A DNA stretch of 34,290 nucleotides from a virus, in IMG/VR virus record IMGVR_UViG_3300025132_000141, positions 1-34,290 of that record; one strand, written 5' to 3'. Below, piece by piece: positions 4,028 through 34,065 of the stretch (within the stretch, counting starts at the first letter, position 1; every line of letters starts with the position of its first letter). Position numbers and translations under genes: made by a program. The notes beneath the pieces are model-generated. The model ran no database searches and had not been told where the DNA came from. It saw nothing but the letters and a program-made list of their open reading frames with translations.

Positions 4028-4191
4028 AGTTTAAAAAACTTAAAATATATTTGCCTTCTACTCGTCTAACGATCTATATGTTACGGGACATGTGTGGGTG
4101 TATATTTTTGTTTCTCTCCTCCGTTAGTGATGCACCCTAGGTTTTTTGTTGGTTACACAGTCTCAGTCATTTCCATAGGAGGATTTTAAAA
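4028..4191 (+). other. longest non-coding gap (164 bases)
   Basis: An AT-rich stretch follows the stop, with a weak AAGTTT/AAACTT inverted repeat (about 4027-4041). A CCTAGG palindrome followed by six T (about 4137-4148) might act as a weak terminator. A strong AGGAGG lies at 4177-4182. No CTATTTA motif and no confident promoter is visible. Confidence 0.4.
4177..4182 (+). promoter_or_regulatory. strong ribosome binding site
   Basis: AGGAGG with an A/T-only spacer (ATTTTAAAA) leads to ATG 4192. The capsid gene has almost the same leader (AGGAGGTTTTAAAA), suggesting selection for very high translation of both. Confidence 0.75.
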
Positions 4192-6528
4192 ATGGCATAT
4201 AAATTCCAGCTGGGCGCAGCCCAGATGAGTGGTGCTCTCGTACAAGAGGGTGCTATTAAACTGCACAACGAAGCAGGAAGTGAGGTCGCGTCTGTTAAGC
4301 AGGACGGTGTTGTTTCTGGTTCGGCTGCAGGTAAATTCAGCACACTTTCGATTGACAGTGTGCAGGTCTTCAGCGCAGCTCAGCAGCTTCAGAACGTCGC
4401 ATCCCTTGATGCAACATCCGAAGCTACAATTGAGGGTGCTATCGACACACTTGCAAACCTTTCGTCTGCTGGTTCCACAGGCGTCGATCTCGACGTTCTC
4501 GGTCCACTCGACGTTCAGGAAGGCATTAAGCAGAACGGTACAGAGATTCTTTCTGACGCTGGCGCGCTGAAGGCAATCGCTTCTGTTTCTGGCTCTGGCG
4601 CATTCCAGGGTGGCAGTGCTACATTCGGCCTTTCCGTTACAGCCGGTACTTCGTTCATCATCGGTTCTGCCGATCTTAACGAAACCGACATGGAGAAGCT
4701 TGATGGTATCACTAATGGTACGGTTGCAGCCTCTAAGGCTGTCGTCGTAGACGCCAACAAGGACGCCGCTGGTTTCCGTGATATTTCGGGTCGCACCGTT
4801 TCTGGTAGTGGCAACGCTACATTCATGGGTAACTATGTTGGTGGCGGTTCCGTAACCGCTGGTTCTTCGTTCATCATCGGCTCTGCTGATCTTAACGAAA
4901 CCGATCTTGAGAAGCTCGATGGTATCACAGATGGTACAGTCGCAGCCAACAAGGCTATTGTTGTAGATGCTAACAAGGACTTTTCGGGTCTTCGTAACGC
5001 TACAGCAACTGGCGCTATCACTGCTGGCACCTCGTTCGTTATCGGTTCTGCCGATCTGAACGAAGCCGACATGGAGAAGCTTGACGGTATTACTAATGGT
5101 ACTGCTGCTGCATCGAAGGCTCTTGTCCTCGACGCTAGCAAGAACCTTACTGGTATTACCAACCTGACTGCTTCGTTCTTCAAGGGTGACGGTTCTGGTC
5201 TGACTAACGTCGACGCTGTAACCAATGTTTCCGCTTCGTCGGCTAACGTTGCTTACGAACTGGCATTCACCGAGTACCTCGGTAGTGACGTAGAGCTTGG
5301 TGGCAACGCCGGTCTTACATTCAACCCAGCAGGCAACAACGGTGCAAACGGTTTCTCCGGTTCCCTCGTAGTTTCTGCTAGTCATGCTGGCGAGCAGATG
5401 TCCCGTATTCTCTTGGGATCCAAAGACGAAGGTCAGCTTTTCTATAAGAAGGACGGCAGCGATCTTGTCTTGGGTCTGTATTCGGCGAATGCAGGAATTG
5501 ACATTTCTGCCTCGACTGGCGGTGGTATCGTCCTTGCTGGCGGTGATGCTGCAGGTACTATCGTTAAGGGTGACGGAATGTTCTTCGTTCAGGACGCTAG
5601 TGAGACAACCAAGGCTTCGATCAACGGTTCGAGTGGTGTAATTTCGGGTTCTAGCAACCTTACACTTTTGGGTAACGCTACTTTTGACGGCAGACTTGTC
5701 GCTAATACCGTAGACTCTAAAATTGCCGCAACTGATACTGCAATCGCCGATGGCGACTCCCTCTACTTCCTTGATGCCACTGATGGCAGCAAGATTAAGA
5801 AGGAATCCCTTGCCGATGTTGCAAGTCTCTTTGCAGGTGATGGTCTGGCTGCCGCTTCGTCGGTAATCAAGCTTGATCTTAATGAGTTGAGTGCTGCAGC
5901 AATCGCTGACGGTGACTTCCTGGCGTTTGTTGACGCAACTGACAACAGCACTAAGAAGGAAGCAGTCGCTGATCTTGCATCCCTCTTCGCTGGTGCCGGT
6001 CTTGCAGCCGCTTCGTCCGTAATCGGTATCGCTAATGCAACCAATGGTGGTATTGGCGTTCAGGCTAACGACATTAAGGTTGATCTTAACGATCTTGCTG
6101 CTGGCGCAGTTGATGTGGCGGCTGATAGCATTGCTATCGTCGATGCTAACGACAGCAACAAGTCCAAGAAGGAGAGCATTTCTGACCTCGTATCTGCTAT
6201 GGCAGGTGCTGGTCTCAGTGCTACTTCCGGTGTTCTTGCCGTTCAGGGCAGCTCCGTCGCTCTTAAGGCTGACGGTGAGACTCTGGCAGAAGGTTATAAC
6301 TACCTTGCAGACCTTAGCTCCAACGCAACCGTATCGTTGCCAGCAGCCCCATCCGTGGGTGATGTTGTGCACGTTAAGGCTGCTGACCTGACCAGTGGCG
6401 CCAACGTCATTATTCAGAAGCAGGGAAGCCACACCATTGATGACGATCACACTGCGGTGCGTATCGAATCTAGTTTCGGTGCTGTTTCGCTCGTTTATGT
6501 TGTAGCTAACAAGTGGAGACTCGTATAG
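4192..6528 (+). CDS. abundant fibre-like virion protein
   Basis: A 778-residue protein built from repeats. An N-terminal region precedes three tandem units with SADLNExDMEKLDGITxGT and VxDAxK motifs (nt 4645-5165), a linker (FFKGDGSGLTNV), one copy of the 112-residue module shared with the next gene (nt 5242-5577), and three further units with DATD...KKE...ASLFAGxGLAA motifs. A C-terminal cap contains ADLTSGANVIIQKQGSHTI and ends VANKWRLV. Codons are strongly biased to GGT, GCT, AAC and CTT like the capsid gene, unlike the fibre gene next door. This suggests a protein made in capsid-like amounts, such as a head fibre, a decoration protein or a multi-copy tail fibre. No enzymatic domain was seen. 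Confidence 0.8.
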   Translation: MAYKFQLGAAQMSGALVQEGAIKLHNEAGSEVASVKQDGVVSGSAAGKFSTLSIDSVQVFSAAQQLQNVASLDATSEATIEGAIDTLANLSSAGSTGVDLDVLGPLDVQEGIKQNGTEILSDAGALKAIASVSGSGAFQGGSATFGLSVTAGTSFIIGSADLNETDMEKLDGITNGTVAASKAVVVDANKDAAGFRDISGRTVSGSGNATFMGNYVGGGSVTAGSSFIIGSADLNETDLEKLDGITDGTVAANKAIVVDANKDFSGLRNATATGAITAGTSFVIGSADLNEADMEKLDGITNGTAAASKALVLDASKNLTGITNLTASFFKGDGSGLTNVDAVTNVSASSANVAYELAFTEYLGSDVELGGNAGLTFNPAGNNGANGFSGSLVVSASHAGEQMSRILLGSKDEGQLFYKKDGSDLVLGLYSANAGIDISASTGGGIVLAGGDAAGTIVKGDGMFFVQDASETTKASINGSSGVISGSSNLTLLGNATFDGRLVANTVDSKIAATDTAIADGDSLYFLDATDGSKIKKESLADVASLFAGDGLAAASSVIKLDLNELSAAAIADGDFLAFVDATDNSTKKEAVADLASLFAGAGLAAASSVIGIANATNGGIGVQANDIKVDLNDLAAGAVDVAADSIAIVDANDSNKSKKESISDLVSAMAGAGLSATSGVLAVQGSSVALKADGETLAEGYNYLADLSSNATVSLPAAPSVGDVVHVKAADLTSGANVIIQKQGSHTIDDDHTAVRIESSFGAVSLVYVVANKWRLV
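4645..5165 (+). repeat. three tandem LNETDMEKLDGIT units
   Basis: Units begin at about 4645, 4861 and 5026, each with G(T/S)SF(I/V)IGSADLNE, LDGIT(N/D)GT and a (V/L)DA(N/S)K segment. Spacing is 216 then 165 bases because unit 1 has a longer tail. This unit type is common in phage fibres. Confidence 0.85.
5242..5577 (+). repeat. 112-residue fibre module, copy 1
   Basis: A module of exactly 336 bases running from YELAFTEY through NPAGNNGANGFSGSL, SASHAGEQMSR and KDGSDLVLGL to GTIVKG(D/N)G. Three more copies of the same exact length lie in the next gene. Confidence 0.9.
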
Positions 6529-6565
6529 CCTAGCGCTATCGACCTTTACTGGTTGTTATTATTTT

Positions 6566-6596
6566 GGGGGCCCTCCGCAAGGGGGGCTCCCTTTTT
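6566..6596 (+). terminator. intrinsic terminator
   Basis: An 11-bp stem (6566-6576 with 6581-6591, including two G-T pairs) closed by a GCAA tetraloop is followed by TTTTT (6592-6596). It lies after the highly expressed 4192-6528 gene and should separate its transcript from the next fibre gene. Confidence 0.85.
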
Positions 6597-6608
6597 AAGT
6601 TAAGACAA

Positions 6609-6616
6609 CTATTTAA
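6609..6616 (+). promoter_or_regulatory. CTATTTAA motif (copy 2)
   Basis: CTATTTAA lies directly after the terminator and 19 bases before the next ATG, again in a gap ahead of a late gene. It may be a diverged late-promoter element; unproven. Confidence 0.35.
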
Positions 6617-6635
6617 GGAAGCAGGAGTGTAATTC

Positions 6636-9600
6636 ATGGCGATACGTAATCAGGGCTGGGCGTTTATTAGTAGCTCAGTGGGCACAACAACCCCCGGTGG
6701 CGCTAACACCAATATTCAGTTTAACAATAACGGCTCTTTCCAGGGAACAGCTAAACTTATAACGGATGGATCCGGATCGCTTTCGGCTTCTGTTAATATT
6801 TCTGCGTCTTCTTTTTATGGCGATGGTTCCAATCTGACAGGCTTGACAGCAAGCGCTGTTAATGTCGCAAACGGTCCAGAGACTGCTATTCAATTTAGGA
6901 TCGACAGCCCCGTCACAGGCGAGATCAGCGGCTCCCACAATCTCATGTTCCTCACTGCGAGTAACATACTCAAAGTAAAAGGTGTAGTCTCCTCGTCCCA
7001 AGGGATCACGGGTTCCCATTTCCTGACAGACGGTATTGCATCGGCTAGTCATTTTGTGGGTAACGGCGCCGGCTTAAGTAATGTCAACGCTCAAACAGCT
7101 GTTACAGCTTCTACAGCCAATCGAAATTATGAGTTGGCGTTTACAGAATATCCAGGCACAGATGTAGAGCTTGGTGTCAACACAGGTCTATTCTTTAACC
7201 CTGCTGGAAATGCTGGTGCCAACGGATTTTCTGGCTCACTGTTTGTATCTGCGAGTCATGCTGGTAACCAGATGTCCAGAGTTGTGCTGGGATCTGCGGC
7301 AGATGGACAACTACTTTTCCAAAAGGACGGAAGCGATCTTGTCCTGGGTCTTAAGACCTCCACCGCCGGAATTGACCTGTCTTCCTCTAACGCCGGCGGC
7401 ATCGTTCTTGCCGGTGGCGACTCGGCAGGCACAATTGTTAAAGGCAACGGCGCCGGACTGCTCGTCCAGACAGCTGCCGAAGCCACAAAAGCGTCCATTT
7501 CATCTGCCGGTGTAATCTCCGGATCAGGAGTGCTGCAGGCAAGCGCAATCGAAACAGACGGTACTATCACCGTTAAGGGTGTGCTCAATGTGGGTCCGGG
7601 CACAGGCGTGGGCTATGTGGCTTCCAACGGTGATCCAGACACGAGAATTAGATTCGGCGCCGCCGGTCGAGGATCGGACTCTATATCCATCGAGGCAGGT
7701 GGCAAGTCGTTTATTATTATTGACGAAAATGGAGCCGACGAGCTTATCTTGGGCGCCTCTTCTGGCGACATAGTTTATGTATCGGGTAGCCTCACGGCTT
7801 CCGCCCCGATAAGAGCGACAGACATCTCAGCTTCCTTAAACGTATCAGCGTCGTCTTACTACATGCTTGCCAACTCGGGTACGATTGCAGGACCTTCGAG
7901 CTATCTCGGTCTTGATACATCGAATCGAATTGTTGTCACCGCTGGTGACGGCACCGGAGGGGGTGGCTCCAGTACCATTAACGTAACCTCGTCCACAGCC
8001 AATCGCACTTATGAGCTGGCTTTTACAGAATTCCCTGGAAATAATGTTAAGCTTGGAGCTAGCACTGGACTATTCTTTAATCCAGCTGGTAACAACGGAG
8101 CTAACGGATTCTCTGGTTCTCTGACAATTTCTGCTAGTCATGCGGGCAAGCAAATGTCCCGCCTCTTGTTCGGATCCAAGAATCAGGGCGTGCTCTCTTT
8201 CGAGGGCGCCGGCTCAGATCCCATACTCAGTCTTAAGACCCCCGAAGCAGGAATTGCTATATCCAGTTCCAATGACGGCGGGATCACAATTCAAGGTGGT
8301 GACTCAGCAGGCACAATTGTTAAAGGCAATGGTCAGTTCCTTATTCAGAACGCAGCCGGGCAAACCAAATTCAGCGTTGCCGGCACGACCGGGAAGGTTA
8401 CAGCAACGGATGTTTCGGCTTCCGTCCATGTATCCGCCTCGGCTTACTATATGCTCCCGACCACCGGAACAATTGCTGGTCCGTCCAGCTATCTTGGTTT
8501 AGATAGCAGGAATAAAATTGTTGTTACTGCCGGCGATGGCTCTGGCGGCGGCGCGACGATTAACGTCACTGCGTCCGCGGCTAATAGGAGCTATGAGCTA
8601 GCGTTTACAGAGTTCCCCGGTTCTGGTGTTAAGCTAGGTCTCAGCACCGGACTCTCCTTTAACCCAGCTGGTAACGCAGGGGCTAACGGCTTCTCGGGCT
8701 CTTTAACTATTTCTGCTAGCCACACAGGAGTTCAGATGTCGCGTCTTCTCCTTGGCTCCAAAGATGATGGTCAGCTTTTCTACAAAAAGGATGGAAGTGA
8801 TCTTGTTTTGGGTCTGTCGACGGCGAATGCCGGCATTGACATTTCTGCCTCCAATGACGGTGGTATTGTCCTCGCTGGTGGCGATTCCGCGGGCACTATT
8901 GTCAAAGGTAATGGGCTGTTCATGGTTCAGAAAGCCGATGAGACCACTACATTTAGTGTCACTGCTACAAGTGGTGACGTTTCAGCAGGCAACGTATCAG
9001 GCTCTGGAGACGGTAGATTCTTGGCACTCGATCTTGATAGTCAGGCTAATGTCTTGACGAAGACAACACTAGGCTCTACAGTTATCAATTCTTCGCTGAC
9101 AAGCGTCGGCGCTCTAACAACACTGACCAGCTCTAACGCTCACATCTCCTCTTCCACGAATGCAGTCTTGTTCCATGTGGATACGGATAGTTACAATGCT
9201 GGAAAGCCAGTGTTTTTAATTACAGGCTCTCAAGGTGTGGGTATTAACAATGGCTCTCCAAAGCTTGCTCTAGATGTTCACTATAGTGGTACTCTTAGTC
9301 CGACGTCGCTCGCCAATGATACAGGTGGCGGACATGTGGCTTATTTTGGCACCTCTTCTGCTAACCTGACGGCTGGCGGTGTGTATTATCTTAACGCGAA
9401 CGGTGGCTGGGAGTCGGTAAACTCGGCAACCACGGGAAGTGGGCACAATCAGCTCTTGGGAATCGCTTTGGGCACTAAGCCACACGACGCCGGTGTCCTG
9501 CTCAAGGGGTACTTTGACGTCAACAGTTTCTACTCAGGCTCCTTTATCAAGGGAGGTCCAGTGTACATTCAGTCGTCGTCCGTCCTGGCTGGTCGAGGTG

Positions 9601-9734
9601 TGGTGGATGGAGGCTACTTAAGTTCCTCCGCACCAACCGCAGGCAACTCCTATGTGCGTATCGTAGGATATGGCACGGACACCGCCAATGTAATTTACTT
9701 TGACCCGGACGCCACGTATGTGGAGATAGCATGA
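6636..9734 (+). CDS. large fibre-like virion protein
   Basis: A 1032-residue protein. The N-terminus has the NTNIQFNNNGSFQGTAKL motif and an FYGDGSNLTGL fibre motif. Then come three copies of the 112-residue module (nt 7116-7451, 7998-8333, 8580-8915) separated by variable linkers containing YYML...GPSSYLGLD repeats. The C-terminal 150 residues (from about GGGHVAYFGT) form a different globular-looking domain with LLGIALG and GVLLKGYF motifs, like the ends of head or tail fibre proteins in marine phages. The likely role is a surface fibre for adsorption or decoration. Start ATG 6636 has GGAG at 6624-6627. Codon bias is weaker than in the preceding gene. Confidence 0.8.
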   Translation: MAIRNQGWAFISSSVGTTTPGGANTNIQFNNNGSFQGTAKLITDGSGSLSASVNISASSFYGDGSNLTGLTASAVNVANGPETAIQFRIDSPVTGEISGSHNLMFLTASNILKVKGVVSSSQGITGSHFLTDGIASASHFVGNGAGLSNVNAQTAVTASTANRNYELAFTEYPGTDVELGVNTGLFFNPAGNAGANGFSGSLFVSASHAGNQMSRVVLGSAADGQLLFQKDGSDLVLGLKTSTAGIDLSSSNAGGIVLAGGDSAGTIVKGNGAGLLVQTAAEATKASISSAGVISGSGVLQASAIETDGTITVKGVLNVGPGTGVGYVASNGDPDTRIRFGAAGRGSDSISIEAGGKSFIIIDENGADELILGASSGDIVYVSGSLTASAPIRATDISASLNVSASSYYMLANSGTIAGPSSYLGLDTSNRIVVTAGDGTGGGGSSTINVTSSTANRTYELAFTEFPGNNVKLGASTGLFFNPAGNNGANGFSGSLTISASHAGKQMSRLLFGSKNQGVLSFEGAGSDPILSLKTPEAGIAISSSNDGGITIQGGDSAGTIVKGNGQFLIQNAAGQTKFSVAGTTGKVTATDVSASVHVSASAYYMLPTTGTIAGPSSYLGLDSRNKIVVTAGDGSGGGATINVTASAANRSYELAFTEFPGSGVKLGLSTGLSFNPAGNAGANGFSGSLTISASHTGVQMSRLLLGSKDDGQLFYKKDGSDLVLGLSTANAGIDISASNDGGIVLAGGDSAGTIVKGNGLFMVQKADETTTFSVTATSGDVSAGNVSGSGDGRFLALDLDSQANVLTKTTLGSTVINSSLTSVGALTTLTSSNAHISSSTNAVLFHVDTDSYNAGKPVFLITGSQGVGINNGSPKLALDVHYSGTLSPTSLANDTGGGHVAYFGTSSANLTAGGVYYLNANGGWESVNSATTGSGHNQLLGIALGTKPHDAGVLLKGYFDVNSFYSGSFIKGGPVYIQSSSVLAGRGVVDGGYLSSSAPTAGNSYVRIVGYGTDTANVIYFDPDATYVEIA
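7116..7451 (+). repeat. 112-residue fibre module, copy 2
   Basis: 336 bases from ANRNYELAF to GTIVKGNG. Same boundaries and length as the copy in the preceding gene. Confidence 0.9.
7998..8333 (+). repeat. 112-residue fibre module, copy 3
   Basis: 336 bases from ANRTYELAF to GTIVKGNG. It differs most in the middle, where FEGAGSDPILSL replaces KKDGSDLVLGL. Confidence 0.9.
8580..8915 (+). repeat. 112-residue fibre module, copy 4
   Basis: 336 bases from ANRSYELAF to GTIVKGNG. Its LLLGSKDDGQLFYKKDGSD segment is closest to copy 1 in the upstream gene, suggesting exchange between the two genes. Confidence 0.9.
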
Positions 9735-9735
9735 G

Positions 9736-10728
9736 ATGCCTAAGTCTGAAATAGTTAATGGAGTAGATATGGGAAAAGCTAAATCAATTAGTACAGTCGA
9801 TGTTGCAGTTGACTGGGAAACAATTTACGAGGTAGATCTGACAGACCAAGGTACATCTGCTAGCGCCGTAGGCGACTGGCCCAGGAACCTAACAGGCAGC
9901 AACGGGGAGATTGTAGCATGGTCTGCGGGCAACACTAGTAACGCTAACGAAATGAAGTTAGTAAGTGGCACCGGTATGAGGATCATCATTGACTCCACAA
10001 AAGATACTGCACATTGGGAAAACAATCTTCAAAGCGGTCCAGTTATCTACGCCCCCATTGACAATATCTATACAGCCGCCGGACTCACATATGACTTGAA
10101 TGAAACTTTCGCATTCCAAACGTTGCATGAATTTACAGTAACCACCGCTGGCTCGGATGATTCTATTTTTTATGGCGGTAGTATGATTTTAGATGGCACC
10201 ACCGGCTCCCCGACGCCCGGAGGTAGTTCTGCTGGCAACTGGGTGCAAAGCTCGTGGATTACAACAAGCTCTGCTACCCCCAATAATCAGTGGTTCTTTA
10301 GAAATGGTGCCATGCAGCAGGGTGGAGCCTCCGGTAATCAATATTGGATCACACCCTCCGTCGCAGACTCTGCTCGCCCTACTTTTTGTGAGATCGTCTT
10401 CTATCCCGGCGCCTCCTGGTCTTCCCGCGCCGGCGTGTATAGCGCATTTCAAACACCCCTTACAATTACAGATTTCTATGCGTATGGTAACATGGCAAGT
10501 CAGCTCCCCTTAGATGTGGGATCAAGCGGCGGATCTCCGCCTGTCAATACCACAGCTAACCCTGGACAAACCACGCAATTTATAATGCGCCCAGGAACCA
10601 CAACAAGTCAGGGACGACAGATTCATGTGGGTGTTGCTGCAGCCTATCGCACACTTTCCACCAGGGATTCAAAAATTACGTGCCTGTGGAAAAAGCTCAG
10701 AATTTTGAGAAGAGGTACAACGTCTTGA
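9736..10728 (+). CDS. unassigned virion protein, beta-rich
   Basis: A 330-residue protein starting 1 base after the fibre stop; an in-frame ATG at 9769 with its own GGAG is an alternative start. It is rich in Trp, Ser, Thr and Gly, with segments such as DWETIYEVDL, NNQWFFRNGAMQQGG and CEIVFYPGASW that suggest a beta-sandwich, possibly a carbohydrate-binding or fibre-tip domain. No catalytic motif is seen. The last 16 residues (CLWKKLRILRRGTTS region) are basic and unlike the rest. They overlap the next gene, so this end may be read past its ancestral stop. Confidence 0.65.
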   Translation: MPKSEIVNGVDMGKAKSISTVDVAVDWETIYEVDLTDQGTSASAVGDWPRNLTGSNGEIVAWSAGNTSNANEMKLVSGTGMRIIIDSTKDTAHWENNLQSGPVIYAPIDNIYTAAGLTYDLNETFAFQTLHEFTVTTAGSDDSIFYGGSMILDGTTGSPTPGGSSAGNWVQSSWITTSSATPNNQWFFRNGAMQQGGASGNQYWITPSVADSARPTFCEIVFYPGASWSSRAGVYSAFQTPLTITDFYAYGNMASQLPLDVGSSGGSPPVNTTANPGQTTQFIMRPGTTTSQGRQIHVGVAAAYRTLSTRDSKITCLWKKLRILRRGTTS

Positions 10729-27500: not shown

Positions 27501-28344
27501 TTTAATCACCAAGGCATTCACCACAGATTGCTTCGGGGAAAACCTCAATATTAACCAGCGCTATGATGCGCATCCCCTCACGCTCCGAGAGGGGGCACCC
27601 TCCCCGGTTAGTGCCCACGGTCTGGGGCAACTTGCTCAATTGGACTCCAGCGCCCTCGACAGCAAGATGCACAATGCGGTGATCATTCTCCCCACAGATT
27701 CGCGACCAAGCGCGCTCCGCGGAATCGAGGACGACGATTTCTCTCAGGGAATTCATCATCATCACATTGGAGCCGCATGTGGCTTGGTGAAGAAAATTAG
27801 TTTTAGTCGCGAGGATCAAGAATATCTCCGTGAAGCAAACATAGAAAAGGAGGGCGCCCTGGGACCAGAACAGCTCCGCGAGCTATACAGTGTAACGTTG
27901 GAAATGGTTGGCAATACACTTTATGAAAACGGACAGTATATCTATGTAAGCCCCACCCTTATGGATGCTGATAAGAAGTCCTTAGACTACTTAGGTCTAC
28001 ACGGATATTACATGATTACATCGGTCGCCTCAACAGTCACCCCTCAGGGCTTCACTACGACTATTAAGGCACTTCACCAAGGGGTGGACTTCTCCGATAA
28101 CCCTGCTCTCACTCCTGAGTTCTACGATGTGGCCGCTGAACCAGGCTTGCCGGGACAAAAAGATCCCAATGCTCATGTTCGCCCGGGCGGAGTTACCGTT
28201 GAAGAAATCACAAAGTCACAAGTAGAAGCAGCAGAAAACAAAAAGGCTGAAGACGATCCCTACGCCGCGAAGCGCAAAGCAGACTTCGAGGAGTTGTCCA
28301 AGAAGAATCCGATGGCTAACATCTACGGCGGGGGACGCAGATGA
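24541..28344 (+). CDS. very large baseplate/virion protein
   Basis: A 1267-residue protein, the largest gene here. The N-terminal 600 residues are helical and charged. A middle block around 470-580 (NGDEDVKQLLDLCPDVYALLTPTIRLFRTDYDE, then GTRGRMAGAGVKSFSWSLDG and DVFFQSPDDFF) has beta-rich structural-protein features. The C-terminal domain has SVTLEMVGNTLYENGQYIYVSPTLMDAD, LGLHGYYMITSV and TPQGFTTTIKALHQG, a pattern I associate with hub or tube-base proteins of marine T4-like phages. A natural HHHH (residues 1072-1075) precedes it. The tail is Lys/Glu-rich. No lysozyme or PAAR motif is seen. The role is baseplate by context. Confidence 0.7.
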   Translation: MAVTTKSTKIWASEDQDFKTLLEEYYKAMAAREAYDRFFGLKTTEVEPKFTYEQWEDAIEKSTKKALDGDGINSRAQAKEAIDKANFAKNRNEFRKIGLMLGLDPEHFSKYEVRKSADGYFESLAVAGSSAENWRRDNLTYTTGVTRPSQTPSVARYLQVREDIDAARYSADDPELSARTAERQGREVNAFYFVRDLSFSSPQMIAYMLKKSYGNDGYKNTPASDLANAVSSTLKELVTKQQAANTSDELDSAWAGSVQSVMDIDAAVQGAAARLLPPPDVFNWSDDSPMISKILYADTTQDATRAVVEAHIAKYLLGGSLRAMDGLITRLLEGDDRFTGQGWEMKVLAERDAILAFFKAAGKKDPDPLPDAPEFETFEELLEDKKSGAKYRKNVLTARRNLVPRDMQCYLLENIKKITEQRAPGGRFAPDYKHVKTVNTNGRPALLTTLIRNGMNGDEDVKQLLDLCPDVYALLTPTIRLFRTDYDEHGNIKKIEVKEGSNSKMVDAVAEIPIPNFLKKSDVASILLGTRGRMAGAGVKSFSWSLDGTQPAEVDNNITATLDVFFQSPDDFFNNMRQAGMVNSDGFPLPNFIDLIVNSPAIRKNTQAGTGKIPAKLLHREYKGANFRIKAIVGWEAPSQEALNAVRQLRNAQNLAEILRRSQATYYLQCVRHNLDFRQNGTVALQIQYQASVAGILSSPNADILAPSTQSVLESLGDIDEQIESTTGSSNQTEKRKQALLEEREKIINQDRLIKYKKLLAGLFSSPRSKVYQVPVDLDDLMRVPYSELTPVQRAARAKRKLKEAALGDVLITTPQQLNLTLLEQTAKTLAAGGDVAQTATEFEKAEQQRYQELQINSGNFKFVPFMFLGDLIDVAIEQVKINNNGTPMNFELFLAETDLIDPLVALRIKDFGDLKGTGLDDVGFLQKLRESDPLSFRDDAGVRFSINLGDIPISVDAFQVWFKNHVIKRDLDKFFLLYFIKKVCADLITKAFTTDCFGENLNINQRYDAHPLTLREGAPSPVSAHGLGQLAQLDSSALDSKMHNAVIILPTDSRPSALRGIEDDDFSQGIHHHHIGAACGLVKKISFSREDQEYLREANIEKEGALGPEQLRELYSVTLEMVGNTLYENGQYIYVSPTLMDADKKSLDYLGLHGYYMITSVASTVTPQGFTTTIKALHQGVDFSDNPALTPEFYDVAAEPGLPGQKDPNAHVRPGGVTVEEITKSQVEAAENKKAEDDPYAAKRKADFEELSKKNPMANIYGGGRR

Positions 28345-29630
28345 TGACAACATTCGACTACACAGAAGAAGACCTTCGAACCCCAGAGGGTAACAACAAC
28401 CTAGGGTCTTACGGGTTGTTTTTTCAGAGGATGCTCTACAAAGAAGTCATCTTTCCCTCCGATCTCGTAAAGCCCCTCGATACCTGGTATGGGAAGCAAT
28501 TATACGGGGTGGTCGATCAGGTTCAAAATAGTATTATTGCTAATCGCGCTAACTTGGTAACCATTCCTTCCGCGGTGGATCCCAACCTTCTGGCTATGAA
28601 CTTCGTTGTCGATGCCTTTGAGGCGCTGGCAGCCCACATGAGAAAGGGGCTTGTTATAGGTGTGCTTAATCGAACTGGAACCCCACTTCTTACCAATATG
28701 AGAGCCCAAAAAGCATATGTGGATCCCAACAACATTTACCGCCAGTATCTCCAGCAGGTCTATGAGAATTTTGCCCAAAGCCGCTCGCAGGCACAAATGA
28801 ACGCCATAACTGACTTTGACTCCTATCTTTCCCAGATGATGGATTATTTACGGTCTATTGCCACCACGGTGCCCGTGACAAAAACAGCGTTTATGACATC
28901 GGGTCTGTGCAGTGCTATCAACTCCGGGCTAACAATTTCTATTGATACCGGACGTGCCGACGACGACGCATATAAATATCAAACCTTTATTGACGACCCT
29001 AACTTTGACTTCTATCTCCGCGCCGCCAAAAAGTTTGGCTTGAGTGTGAATAAGAATATGCCGTGGATGCTAACAGCGGATTTGTTTTCAGACGCTATTC
29101 TCCACTATCTTAACAGCTACATTCTGCCAGATGGCTCTCTGGTGGACCAGACCAATTTCTTTAGAACTTATTATGATCCCACGTACTTACAGGATATAGA
29201 TCTTCTTAAAACTCTTATTATTCAAGTCTATAGGAATTTCGTGGAGCAAAACCCAATATATGAGAGGGTTCACGATTGTCAAATCCAGATTCGCTACCGG
29301 GGACTGCTGCCTCCCAATGCGCTGGATCTTCTTGGCGATAAAGAAATGTTATACTTGTATTTGGACCTGCGCAATAGGGAAACCGGTAACGCTCTTCCTG
29401 TGACCTCCAAGATCAAGAGGGAGATCAGGGACGTCTACATGCTGCAGCCCGATGCATCCATCAGTAAGTTGCAAAATGCAGCAGAGTATGTTAATGTTTT
29501 GTATCGGGACTATATCTATGATTCCTCGTATATACTTACTCTTGATGTTTTAGGGAATTTTGGGCTTGACAATCAAGCAAGATCTGCTACTATGAGTACA
29601 GCTGGAGCAGTTACCCAGCAGTTGTACTAG
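28341..29630 (+). CDS. unassigned virion protein at the end of the baseplate cluster
   Basis: A 429-residue, Tyr/Leu/Asp-rich protein, mostly helical, with no membrane span or enzyme motif. Blocks include YGLFFQRMLYKEVIFPSDLVKPLDTWYG, NKNMPWMLTADLFSDAILHYL and YLQDIDLLKTLIIQVYRNFVEQNP. ATG 28341 overlaps the previous stop (ATGATGA; a second ATG lies at 28344), so it is translationally coupled to the giant baseplate gene and probably part of the same assembly. I do not recognise a characterised family. Confidence 0.7.
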   Translation: MMTTFDYTEEDLRTPEGNNNLGSYGLFFQRMLYKEVIFPSDLVKPLDTWYGKQLYGVVDQVQNSIIANRANLVTIPSAVDPNLLAMNFVVDAFEALAAHMRKGLVIGVLNRTGTPLLTNMRAQKAYVDPNNIYRQYLQQVYENFAQSRSQAQMNAITDFDSYLSQMMDYLRSIATTVPVTKTAFMTSGLCSAINSGLTISIDTGRADDDAYKYQTFIDDPNFDFYLRAAKKFGLSVNKNMPWMLTADLFSDAILHYLNSYILPDGSLVDQTNFFRTYYDPTYLQDIDLLKTLIIQVYRNFVEQNPIYERVHDCQIQIRYRGLLPPNALDLLGDKEMLYLYLDLRNRETGNALPVTSKIKREIRDVYMLQPDASISKLQNAAEYVNVLYRDYIYDSSYILTLDVLGNFGLDNQARSATMSTAGAVTQQLY

Positions 29631-29638
29631 GAGAAGAC

Positions 29639-30826
29639 TTGCTTTTTCAGGTTTTGGATCACAAGAAGGACTGTGTTGGTTATTTCGCCAACAATCACAT
29701 TCATGCTACTGGACTCGTACCCACCACGGGGATGACCTGGGAGTTATCGGACCACATGCATGGTGAAGCGTACGAGCTAGGGCGCATCTACAGCCACGGA
29801 GCGCCTCTTACAGACGTTTGTCCGGAAGATATGAAGGCAGACTGGGATCGTATCAAAAAAGCGCTCAGATCGTGCCTGAAAGCCTTTAGAACGGCTCGTC
29901 TCTCCCTCGATGAGAATTGTTTGTACGATGTAGTTCCCGAAACACTGCTTTACGAGTATCTCAACGCCAAAAACAAGATTACGGATCACGTTATTCAAAC
30001 GTATCCGCGGCCTAAGAATCATGATGCGATGTTAAACCTCAACAGGATGCTAATCGACGTTGGCTCTAGGCGCTTAAACATCAATATTGATCCCATCAAG
30101 CACTTATTAGGCTCGATTCAAGGACAGAACTTCCACAGAACCCTGCAAAACGTAACCCACACATGTCAATACAACCCGTGGGGAACAGTCACCGGACGCT
30201 TGGCGGCTCAGCCCAATACTTTTCCTATTTTGACGATGAATAAAGATTTCCGTTCCTGTGTTCACGCAGTCAACGATTACCTTGTAGAGCTAGACTTCAA
30301 TGCAGCCGAACTGAGAGTCCTGCTGGCGCTCTCCGGACAAGAGCAGCCGCAAAACGACATCCACGACTGGAATGTGAAGAACATCTTCGGCGGATCTGTA
30401 ACCCGGGATGAGGCGAAGGTGCAGACTTTCTCGTGGCTGTATTCCAGCAAGGATAACAAGGACTTAGGGCGCCTATATAACAAGGATTTTGTGCGAAATA
30501 AGTACTGGGATGGCTATAAAATTGAGACTGATTATGGTAGAATAATAGAAGATGTTGACGAGCACCGAGCACTTAACTATATCGTTCAAAGCACTACAAT
30601 TGACATGGTGCACGAACAGGCATACAAGGTTTACGAACTATTGAAAGGCAAGAAGAGTTATATTTCATTTCTGATTCACGATGCGGTCTATATTGATTTG
30701 GCCGATGAAGATCGCTATGATTTACTAAACCTGCTTGACACATTCAAGAAGACTCGATATGATATGTTCAAGGTTAATGTCTCCGCCGGACGCAATCTGG
30801 GAGAGATGAGAGAGTTAAAGCTATGA
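29639..30826 (+). CDS. short family-A DNA polymerase (polymerase domain only)
   Basis: A 395-residue protein starting at TTG 29639 after AGGAG. The Pol I/T7-type polymerase motifs are present in order: GTVTGRL (182-188); motif A LDFNAAELR (D219, E224, R226); motif B RDEAKVQTFSWLY (R256, K260, F264, Y268); the N-x3-Q segment LNYIVQST; and motif C LIHDAVYID (H347, D348, A349). Motif C has Ala where HDE has Glu. F264 is at the position of E. coli Phe762. There is no 3'-5' exonuclease domain and the fingers are very short. T4 and near relatives use a family-B enzyme; a family-A polymerase split from its exonuclease is known in the far T4 relative RM378. It could be the replicative polymerase with a separate exonuclease gene outside this window, or an accessory enzyme. 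It is coupled to the next gene by ATGA. Confidence 0.9.
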   Translation: MLFQVLDHKKDCVGYFANNHIHATGLVPTTGMTWELSDHMHGEAYELGRIYSHGAPLTDVCPEDMKADWDRIKKALRSCLKAFRTARLSLDENCLYDVVPETLLYEYLNAKNKITDHVIQTYPRPKNHDAMLNLNRMLIDVGSRRLNINIDPIKHLLGSIQGQNFHRTLQNVTHTCQYNPWGTVTGRLAAQPNTFPILTMNKDFRSCVHAVNDYLVELDFNAAELRVLLALSGQEQPQNDIHDWNVKNIFGGSVTRDEAKVQTFSWLYSSKDNKDLGRLYNKDFVRNKYWDGYKIETDYGRIIEDVDEHRALNYIVQSTTIDMVHEQAYKVYELLKGKKSYISFLIHDAVYIDLADEDRYDLLNLLDTFKKTRYDMFKVNVSAGRNLGEMRELKL

Positions 30827-31140
30827 AGAAGATGTACAACAAACTGGTGAGAGACAAGATCCCCCAGATCATCGAAGAGGCGGGCAAGAGTTGCATATGC
30901 CATACGGTCGAGGGCGACATCTTAAAGACCTATGCCAAGAAGAAGCTCCGCGAAGAGATCGAGGAATTCCTTGAAGATCCATGCCCCGAAGAGGCTGGCG
31001 ACGTGATGGAGATCTTCCATTTTCTCTGCGACCTCTATGATATCAAAGATTCACAGGTTATGGCGAGCAGCACAGCTAAGCGCGTAACGCGTGGCGGCTT
31101 CAATGAGGGTCTTGTCCTCAGCTGGGTGATCGAGAAGTGA
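30823..31140 (+). CDS. MazG-like NTP pyrophosphohydrolase
   Basis: This 105-residue protein starts KKMYNKLVRDKIPQIIEE, the signature opening of phosphoribosyl-ATP pyrophosphohydrolase/MazG-like all-alpha hydrolases. The metal-binding residues are in KLREEIEEF (about 43-51) and EEAGDVMEI (about 60-68), the EExxE and ExxD pattern. Members split nucleoside triphosphates to monophosphates, cleaning pools or lowering alarmones. It is coupled on both sides: ATGA with the polymerase and GTGA with the tubulin-like gene. A nucleotide-pool role next to a polymerase is a reasonable inference. Confidence 0.85.
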   Translation: MKKMYNKLVRDKIPQIIEEAGKSCICHTVEGDILKTYAKKKLREEIEEFLEDPCPEEAGDVMEIFHFLCDLYDIKDSQVMASSTAKRVTRGGFNEGLVLSWVIEK

Positions 31141-32003
31141 ACATAGTGGGACTAGGAAAAGCCGGTTGCAACATTGCGAAGACTTTCTCTAAGTATCCGC
31201 AGTATACAACCTATGGTATTGATACCCACGAGGACGCTACTATTACTATCCGGCGTAAAAAGAGCCACGAGGATTATGATGAAAACTTTCCCAATCTGCG
31301 CCGTAAGCTAAAGTTTGTTGGAGAAGACGTTACAGTTATTATTGCCGGCGCCGGAGAGATCTCCGGAGGTTCGCTAAGGCTGCTCGAACAGATCAGCCAA
31401 AACAATCTTACCGTAATCTATATTGAGGGTGATACGAGCTTGATGTCAGAGGTACAGAAGAAGCAAGAAAAAATTGTAAGTAATGTCTTGCAGGAATACG
31501 CTCGCTCTGGTATGATTGAAAGCGTGGTGATGATCAGCAACAGTGCCCTGGAGAAAAGCATCGGAGACATGCCGATTATTGGATACTACGATACACTCAA
31601 TCAGGCAGTGGTTAACACCATTCATATGATTAATGTTTTTAGGAACTCTGAGCCTGTTATTGGCAATTTCATCAAGCCTGCCGAGATTAGTCGCATCGCA
31701 ACGGTAGGGGTCGTCGACATCAGCGACGACGATGAGGCTGAGCACAAAGAAAAGTGGTTTTACCCCTTGACAGGCACCCGAGATGTGGTATACTACTATG
31801 GTATTAGTGAGAAGGATTTAAAGAACGACGGCACATTGTTTAGAAAAATCAATAACTTTGTGAAGTCGCGTATTGAAGACAATATTAACGTTTCGTACGG
31901 TGTTTTTAAGACCTCTTATGAGCAGAAATATTGTTATTGCATAAAGTACACATCTATGGTACAATCGTATGCAGAACTTTTAGACGATCAGGATATTAGC
32001 TGA
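31137..32003 (+). CDS. divergent tubulin/FtsZ-like GTPase
   Basis: This 288-residue protein has an FtsZ/tubulin layout. A glycine-rich first strand-loop (IVGLGKAGCNIAKTF, residues 3-17) corresponds to the FtsZ VGGGGGN region. A signature-like loop AGAGEISGGS (70-79) stands where FtsZ has GGGTGTG. MISNSALEK (132-140) aligns with FtsZ IPNDKLL, followed by YYDTLNQAVVNTIHMI like DAFGAANDVL. The segment expected to carry the catalytic T7-loop Asp reads VIGNFIKPAEIS, without an obvious NxD. So it may bind GTP but polymerise or hydrolyse differently. Phage tubulins such as PhuZ position DNA in infected cells; the role here is inferred. It starts at GTG 31137 overlapping the previous stop. Confidence 0.75.
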   Translation: MNIVGLGKAGCNIAKTFSKYPQYTTYGIDTHEDATITIRRKKSHEDYDENFPNLRRKLKFVGEDVTVIIAGAGEISGGSLRLLEQISQNNLTVIYIEGDTSLMSEVQKKQEKIVSNVLQEYARSGMIESVVMISNSALEKSIGDMPIIGYYDTLNQAVVNTIHMINVFRNSEPVIGNFIKPAEISRIATVGVVDISDDDEAEHKEKWFYPLTGTRDVVYYYGISEKDLKNDGTLFRKINNFVKSRIEDNINVSYGVFKTSYEQKYCYCIKYTSMVQSYAELLDDQDIS

Positions 32004-32031: not shown

Positions 32032-32805
32032 ATGGGTATTAACTTAGATAAGATGCGAGAGAAGCTCGCGTCCCTTAGAGGAGAGGGCAACTCCTCAGAT
32101 TCGGTTTTCTGGCGTCCCGAGGACGGTGAGCAGGATATCCGTATTGTCCCAACCCCCGATGGTGACCCCTTCAAGGAGATGTGGTTCCATTATAATGTAG
32201 AGAAGGGCGGATTCTTGTGTCCGAAGCGTAACTTCGGCGATGAGTGTCCTGTCTGTGACTTTGCATCCCAGCTGTGGCGAGAAGGTGTCGATAATAACGA
32301 TGACCATTCAAAGAAGACTGCAAAGAGCCTCTTCGTTCGGCAGCGATTCTTTAGCCCCGTGATGGTTCGTGGTGAGGAAGAGAAGGGCATTCGTGTTTGG
32401 GGTTATGGCAAGACAGCTTACGAGAACCTTTTGACGCTTGTGCTCAACCCCGAGTACGGCGATATTACTGACACTGAGGCAGGGACTGACCTTACAATGA
32501 CGTACGGCAAGCCCCCAGGAGCCTCATTCCCGCAGACGAAGCTGGTACCACGTCGACGATCTTCTCCTCTGTGTGCCGATATGACGCCTGACAAGTGCGC
32601 CGACTTGCTTGATAGTATTCCAGAGTTCTCTGGACTGTTTGACCGTAAGTCGACCGCGGATGTTCAGGCATCACTTGATACATTTGTCAACGGAATGGTC
32701 GAGGACCCGGAAGCGGTCAGCTCCGAGACCACCAAGTATGGCAAGAAGACCGAAGACGAGGGCAACGCTGTTGACCAGGCTTTCGCAGAGCTTGGCGCTC
32801 TCTAA
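32032..32805 (+). CDS. 32: single-stranded DNA-binding protein, T4 gp32-like
   Basis: A 257-residue protein. The N-terminal basic/helical start is followed by an OB-fold core with a built-in zinc site: H53, C63, C72 and C75 (CPKRNFGDECPVC), the same order as T4 H64/C77/C87/C90 with slightly shorter spacing. The LFVRQRFFSPVMV strand and YENLLTLVLNPEYGDITD segment also fit gp32. The C-terminus is acidic (EDEGNAVDQAFAELGAL), as expected for the partner-binding tail. It coats single-stranded DNA in replication and recombination. It has a strong AAAAGGAG site. It is the anchor for calling this end of the window a replication region. Confidence 0.93.
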   Translation: MGINLDKMREKLASLRGEGNSSDSVFWRPEDGEQDIRIVPTPDGDPFKEMWFHYNVEKGGFLCPKRNFGDECPVCDFASQLWREGVDNNDDHSKKTAKSLFVRQRFFSPVMVRGEEEKGIRVWGYGKTAYENLLTLVLNPEYGDITDTEAGTDLTMTYGKPPGASFPQTKLVPRRRSSPLCADMTPDKCADLLDSIPEFSGLFDRKSTADVQASLDTFVNGMVEDPEAVSSETTKYGKKTEDEGNAVDQAFAELGAL

Positions 32806-33903: not shown

Positions 33904-34065
33904 ATGATTGCACGAACTAACCAAATTAGCCTTGTTGCTGCTCTCGCCCTGATTCTGGGCTTCGCGGCTGTTACTTTTAGCGGCTGCCCTGCAAGCGGGG
34001 ACGACGACGACTCCGCCGCGGATGATGATGATTCCGCTGGTGACGACGACGACTCGGCGGAGTAA
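33904..34065 (+). CDS. small lipoprotein with Asp-Ser repeats
   Basis: A 53-residue protein. A basic start (MIARTNQ) is followed by a hydrophobic stretch (LVAALALILGFAAVTF) and a lipobox-like FSGC with Cys28, so the mature chain would be a 26-residue lipidated peptide. That peptide contains three DDDDSA units separated by Ala or Gly. It should sit on the periplasmic or outer membrane side of a diderm host as a flexible, highly negative tail. The sequence is unlike any other in the window and resembles lipoprotein linkers I recall from deltaproteobacterial genomes. Possible roles are superinfection exclusion or envelope remodelling; no evidence decides. AAAGGA precedes ATG 33904. Confidence 0.75.
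   Translation: MIARTNQISLVAALALILGFAAVTFSGCPASGDDDDSAADDDDSAGDDDDSAE

Follow-up and report, generated by a model that had tools for sequence, protein, structure and literature searches.

A divergent tubulin-fold gene linked to DNA polymerase and gp32 genes in a clade of uncultured phages

Layout and conservation of the locus

We analysed a 34,290-bp virus record (IMG/VR record IMGVR_UViG_3300025132_000141; G000 in our set), hereafter the window, from a T4-like myovirus in which genes for a family A DNA polymerase, a putative MazG-type nucleoside triphosphate (NTP) pyrophosphohydrolase and a tubulin-like protein overlap one another. This cassette is a clade-specific part of the phage replication module and lies directly upstream of the gene for a gp32-type single-strand DNA-binding protein (SSB). 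It follows the end of the tail block, and the upstream families recognised in the window are head protease, major head protein, sheath, tube, baseplate and tape-measure proteins. A preliminary description made from the sequence had reported three genes chained by an ATGA and a GTGA overlap between virion genes and gp32, and the sequence and its open reading frames (ORFs) agree with this exactly. The span given there for the cassette, 29628-32003, is right at its end but not at its start, as 29628-29630 is the TAG stop codon of the preceding gene and the polymerase begins with TTG at 29639. The three family identities proposed are real, the MazG-type one being recognised by motif only and the tubulin by structure only. 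The features, with protein lengths in amino acids (aa), are:

29639..30826, + strand: family A DNA polymerase, 395 aa, polymerase domain only; TTG start after AGGAG
30823..31140, + strand: MazG-like putative NTP pyrophosphohydrolase, 105 aa, by motif only; ATGA overlap at 30823-30826
31137..32003, + strand: divergent tubulin/FtsZ-fold protein, 288 aa, by structure prediction; GTG start inside the mazG stop, GTGA overlap at 31137-31140
32032..32805, + strand: gp32-type single-strand DNA-binding protein with its own Shine-Dalgarno sequence (AAAAGGAG); Pfam gp32 3.3e-13, PHROG SSB 3.3e-22
28341..29630, + strand: preceding gene, the end of the tail/baseplate block, marking the border between virion and replication genes

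Related loci in viral contigs were found with the tubulin-like gene (78), with the polymerase (80) and with divergent subsets (80 each); these sets overlap, several of the searches cover the 80 best out of 190-458 candidates, and any of the viral records may be incomplete. Conservation counts use 105 distinct tubulin-like genes from these contigs. The adjacency of the three families, which had been proposed as a check, is conserved over this set: the order polymerase-(mazG)-tubulin-gp32 is fixed in all loci with enough DNA on the right side, the exceptions being contig ends. Polymerase and mazG share exactly 4 nt in 62 of the roughly 90 cases where the overlap can be measured, and mazG and tubulin share 4 nt in 82 of 98. 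Where mazG is absent, the polymerase gene may run straight into the tubulin gene, with an overlap of 4 or 1 nt. Because overlaps of 4 nt are ordinary in these compact genomes (16/146, 10/148 and 4/26 neighbouring ORF pairs), it is the conservation of the overlap, not its existence, that counts as evidence. Inserts do occur: polymerase and mazG can be separated by small ORFs, and in one locus (L051) a DNA methyltransferase-like gene separates tubulin from gp32. Pairwise identities of polymerase, tubulin and gp32 are correlated (Spearman 0.75-0.79), and median dN/dS values of ~0.064 for the tubulin gene and 0.065 for the polymerase gene, from few close pairs, indicate purifying selection. Loss or relocation of the tubulin gene was not seen in any of the loci, which span 44-100% polymerase identity. 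It is almost certain that the linkage of the tubulin gene to polymerase and gp32 is fixed throughout the clade. The preceding gene has no family match in Pfam or PHROG searches; its homologues stand upstream of the polymerase in most long loci.

The start signals within the locus differ: a strong Shine-Dalgarno sequence precedes gp32 in 102 of 103 relatives, and the tubulin-like gene in only 7 of 105. This pattern fits coupled, and probably low, translation of the latter.

The MazG-like gene carries a metal-binding motif, ExxE(x8)ExxD, whose residues E45, E48, E57 and D60 are invariant in 19 relatives. It has no significant Pfam or NCBIfam match, and the only weak matches, to PRA-PH (E 0.09) and dATP/dGTP pyrophosphohydrolase (0.044), were each obtained with one of the 19 members, so that the assignment as an NTP pyrophosphohydrolase, drawn from the motif, is putative. 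Several lineages of the tubulin clade have no mazG and keep the tubulin gene. The three-gene unit of the preliminary description thus holds for the tubulin gene, which is never missing where the sequence allows, and does not hold for mazG, which is dispensable. In three loci (L022, L023 at about 9200-9900, and L025) a stretch of ~0.7 kb rich in G+C (0.63-0.74 vs ~0.40 around it) interrupts mazG, and the same insert recurs in contigs of different samples.

Fold and nucleotide pocket of the tubulin-like protein

An AlphaFold2 model of the 288-aa protein, built with 40 aligned relatives as input, has a predicted local distance difference test score (pLDDT) of 87.6 and a predicted template modelling score of 0.88, and shows a complete fold with an N-terminal nucleotide domain, a central helix H7 and a C-terminal domain. 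Foldseek against the PDB returned FtsZ (1.1e-12, probability 1.00), and VIA-align placed CetZ 3zid at the top (Z 23.9, 261 aligned residues), followed by FtsZ, TubZ and tubulin; the top 50 VIA matches are all CetZ, FtsZ, TubZ or tubulin, and the matches to CetZ, FtsZ and TubZ reach Z of about 21-24 over 259-278 residues at 10-17% identity. In the comparison with predicted viral structures, an uncultured-phage 'FtsZ' (17% identity) matches best and a named jumbo-phage tubulin-like protein ranks third. Judged by the model, the protein is virtually certain to have a tubulin fold. A NAD-binding Rossmann protein, indicated by weak matches to TrkA_N (residues 3-41) and saccharopine dehydrogenase, was rejected as the overall fold, since the model fits tubulins end to end.

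Sequence comparison gives no such signal. Pfam, PHROGs and NCBIfam do not recognise the gene; Pfam Tubulin PF00091 is matched by 0 of 40 members at E 0.1; the 40-member family yields only weak glycine-loop matches against profiles (TrkA_N over the first glycine loop); and a profile search of PDB chains with the protein found none. Relatives were found neither by tblastn in the annotated phage collection nor in cellular genome contigs searched for hosts. The best reading is that this is a divergent and new family of phage tubulins, unseen by sequence profiles. As hhalign of the family against single FtsZ or PhuZ sequences also gave no significant score, the residue correspondences that follow were placed by hand.

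Invariant or nearly so in the 105 distinct sequences are G5, G7 and G10 in T1; G71, G73, [ST]76 and G77 in T4; N135 (99%), where the helix following S6 begins; and N155 (100%), in the central helix. The glycine loop reads GxGx[IV][ST]G where the canonical form is GGGTGTG. N135 and N155 were placed on FtsZ N165 and D187 and on tubulin N206 and N228, the guanine-contact residues, and by position the conserved glycines and these two asparagines would fit the phosphate loop and the two guanine contacts of FtsZ and tubulin.

The T7 region (residues 173-190) contains no invariant acid in the same sequences; the best candidate, position 183, is D or E in 71% and mostly P, N or Q in the rest. Residues 178-186 are coil in the model, where H8 is expected. 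In canonical protofilaments the interface consists of T7, the base of H8 and S9 (PMC3678025). Given the lack of a conserved T7 acid and of a predicted H8, a dynamic PhuZ-like filament, which the preliminary description had suggested for positioning DNA or the replication focus, is doubtful for the modelled protein. Filament formation is still compatible with a lost acid, since the PhuZ T7-acid mutant D190A retains GTP-dependent polymerisation, its filaments being non-dynamic (PMC4244570). Nitrosopumilus maritimus FtsZ seems to have neither a T7 loop nor a GTP motif and did not polymerise when expressed in yeast (PMC3684127). On these grounds we prefer a static assembly or a switch to a dynamic filament.

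The polymerase, its neighbours and the sister phages

The cassette polymerase matches Pfam DNA_pol_A (8.9e-13), PHROG DNA polymerase (5.7e-18) and PDB profiles of Taq and Klenow, and its AlphaFold2 model (pLDDT 86.1) resembles apicoplast polymerase, Pol1 and Klenow in Foldseek (about 1e-12). Invariant residues are D219 and E224 in motif A; R256, K260, F264 and Y268 in motif B; H347 and D348 in motif C; and Q317. Both catalytic aspartates, D219 and D348, are thus present, and motif C reads HD[AS] in place of HDE. In the Pfam, PHROG and PDB profile matches the aligned part starts at about residue 162-176, and no match extends over a 3'-5' exonuclease domain.

In a 171-kb relative (G005) the same neighbourhood encodes a 1146-aa DnaE (PHROG 1e-218), a DnaB-like helicase, UvsX, an exonuclease and ribonucleotide reductase. 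DnaE is present in 8 of 10 long relatives within the tubulin clade; the remaining two are possibly fragments. Eight long records were tested for PolB, and all were negative. Since the clade also encodes DnaE, the cassette enzyme is very likely a second polymerase, and the main replicase was rejected as its evident reading. Together with the separately encoded exonuclease, the polymerase may resemble a split Pol I. In another relative (G002, 6145-7370) DnaE appears split over two open frames (716 + 403 aa), which may be a real split, an intron or intein, or an assembly error. The phage record G005 also contains a transfer-messenger RNA, unusual for a phage (162873-163191, equivalent to L293:2873-3191; Rfam RF00023, 126 bits; tag ANDADYGLALAA).

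A homologous short polymerase was found with the A2 profile in two cultured phages, Flavobacterium phage immuto (1.6e-11) and Microcystis phage Mel-JY01 (4.3e-8), and in the 484-kb record LR756508 (4.8e-17). In all three, gp32 and then RecA/UvsX lie downstream of it, and tubulin and mazG genes are absent; in immuto an exonuclease and DnaB come next. Eighty further viral contigs carry the sister polymerase, with gp32 at most 5 kb downstream in 48, and none of the 80 loci has tubulin or mazG; nor was a tubulin found anywhere in eight long sister records. The slot between sister polymerase and gp32 (loci L312-L391) holds a ~130-aa family in 48/48, a variable 341-825-aa family in 46/48 and minor ones. 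A divergent tubulin hidden in this gap was rejected, as none of the clustered gene families was recognised as tubulin-like.

PolB was detected in 8 of 9 sister phages tested and DnaE in none of eight contigs tested; LR756508 has both. The replicases thus differ, with DnaE and no PolB in the tubulin clade (G001-G010) and PolB and no DnaE in tested sister contigs (G014-G019, W01). The ancestral module was likely polymerase-slot-gp32. Three differences occur together in the tubulin clade, a gained tubulin, a gained mazG and replacement of PolB by DnaE, and this is a correlation, not proof. Since sister phages keep polymerase and gp32 without tubulin, the polymerase does not need it. A relative with the tubulin gene missing and the rest unchanged, which the preliminary description had named as the contrary case, was not seen within the clade; outside it, the sister phages do keep polymerase and gp32 without tubulin or mazG.

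Elsewhere in the window, a small lipoprotein-like ORF with repeated DDDDSA segments (33904-34065) precedes a short membrane-anchored ORF, and the two may form a spanin pair. An antisense open frame of 754 aa (4186-6450, - strand) runs nearly the full length of a 778-aa gene (4192-6528, + strand) and is probably a codon-usage effect.

Possible roles and comparison with known systems

The best overall explanation, which we advance tentatively, is that the tubulin-like protein is part of the replication module as a static or slow GTP scaffold or a switch. The polymerase would carry out gap filling or primer replacement with a separate exonuclease, as a split Pol I, and the MazG-type protein would clean nucleotides. 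The tubulin-fold protein, probably made at low, polymerase-linked levels by termination-reinitiation, would bind GTP in its predicted canonical pocket and either self-assemble into a static or slowly turning scaffold (an oligomer or short filament) or act as a GTP switch; in either form it would gather or anchor a replication/repair centre, and it would not be a treadmilling PhuZ-type spindle. That the protein acts at such a centre is somewhat favoured, and a static scaffold or switch is likely if it does. A bolder version, which seems rather unlikely to us, is that in a widespread phage lineage other than the nucleus-forming jumbo phages the phage's own tubulin-superfamily protein is an obligate structural part of the replication/repair centre, made in step with an auxiliary polymerase and assembling independently of the classical T7-loop GTPase.

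Some observations weigh against the scaffold or switch. The reading of T7 and H8 comes from a predicted model and a hand-placed alignment, and PhuZ D190A still yields GTP-dependent filaments with its T7 acid mutated (PMC4244570). Low expression is read from start signals only, the sister group does without the gene, and operon position alone proves no shared process. The single process that the preliminary description had suggested for the three genes is partly supported: families, overlaps and adjacency stand; a main replicase as the evident role of the polymerase (DnaE being present) and a need for mazG are not supported, and a dynamic filament is doubtful.

A dynamic filament that hydrolyses GTP and serves to position phage DNA or the replication focus would suit the full tubulin fold with its C-terminal domain and the retained GTP-pocket positions, and such positioning is known for the phage tubulins PhuZ and TubZ (PMC4244570, PMC3678025). 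The non-conserved T7 acid and unpredicted H8, the weak Shine-Dalgarno sequence with coupled and probably low expression, and the failure to detect chimallin or PhuZ in two long records or the RNA polymerase (RNAP) beta-prime subunit in eight make it unlikely. FtsZ is commonly targeted by phages, and the two longitudinal faces of the protein are degenerate asymmetrically, so that an intact GTP face with a degenerate T7/H8 face could cap or poison host FtsZ filaments and inhibit cell division; yet co-assembly is doubtful without detectable sequence similarity to FtsZ, and the strict linkage to polymerase and SSB would go unexplained, which leaves this reading improbable.

Little better are the prospects of a protein that binds GTP without polymerising and serves the auxiliary polymerase or the SSB as an accessory subunit, either as a regulator or in the manner of a clamp. 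In its favour, the polymerase and tubulin genes overlap directly by 4 nt in some mazG-less loci, and the tubulin is never without the polymerase where the sequence allows, but sister polymerases work without tubulin and we know of no precedent for such a role in the tubulin superfamily. Finally, the genes could be functionally independent neighbours held together only by compact phage gene order, as the commonness of 4-nt overlaps in these genomes, the dispensable mazG and the tolerated inserts would allow; with no tubulin loss or relocation at 44-100% polymerase identity, this is very improbable.

The preliminary description had considered the polymerase-mazG-tubulin combination new, and we likewise found no description of it, nor any report of coupling between a tubulin and a polymerase, in the open-access literature. 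Phage tubulins, as detected by sequence hidden Markov models, have been said to distinguish Chimalliviridae, apart from a few scattered exceptions (PMC11835377); PhuZ homologues are described in huge phages (PMC7162821) and two distinct tubulin representatives in jumbo phages (PMC7824862). Like PhuZ of the nucleus-forming jumbo phages 201phi2-1 and PhiKZ, the cassette protein belongs to the tubulin superfamily, is encoded by a phage, has a similar size and is linked to phage DNA. It differs in having no detectable sequence similarity to PhuZ and no evident T7 acid or H8, phuZ does not adjoin a polymerase gene, and the clade has no detected chimallin or RNAP beta-prime: PF04997 is absent in 8 long clade records, and a phmmer search with 201phi2-1 gp105, insensitive as a single-sequence search, gave nothing significant in G004 or G005. 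A nucleus-forming phage was thus rejected, as RNAP beta-prime, chimallin and PhuZ were not found in the long records searched.

With CetZ, FtsZ and TubZ the protein shares the whole tubulin fold, but it has no Pfam Tubulin match and its T7 acid is not conserved. N. maritimus FtsZ differs from it in being a cellular protein and in having no conserved GTP-binding motif. The immuto/Mel-JY01 module is similar in its short family A polymerase upstream of gp32 and then RecA/UvsX, and differs in having no tubulin or mazG, a conserved ~130-aa gene in the slot and mostly PolB, not DnaE. Moraphages (PMC12619734) are likewise large aquatic T4-like phages and share genes including a DNA polymerase I VOG and an SSB VOG, but use PolB, and their description mentions no tubulin. 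That a whole lineage of uncultured phages carries an unrecognised tubulin fold, strictly linked to polymerase and SSB and without a conserved catalytic acid, suggests that profile-based surveys undercount phage cytoskeletal proteins. Compared with these systems, what is new here is a lasting link of a tubulin gene to DNA replication genes, and with four small genes a direct connection between a cytoskeletal fold and replication proteins becomes testable.

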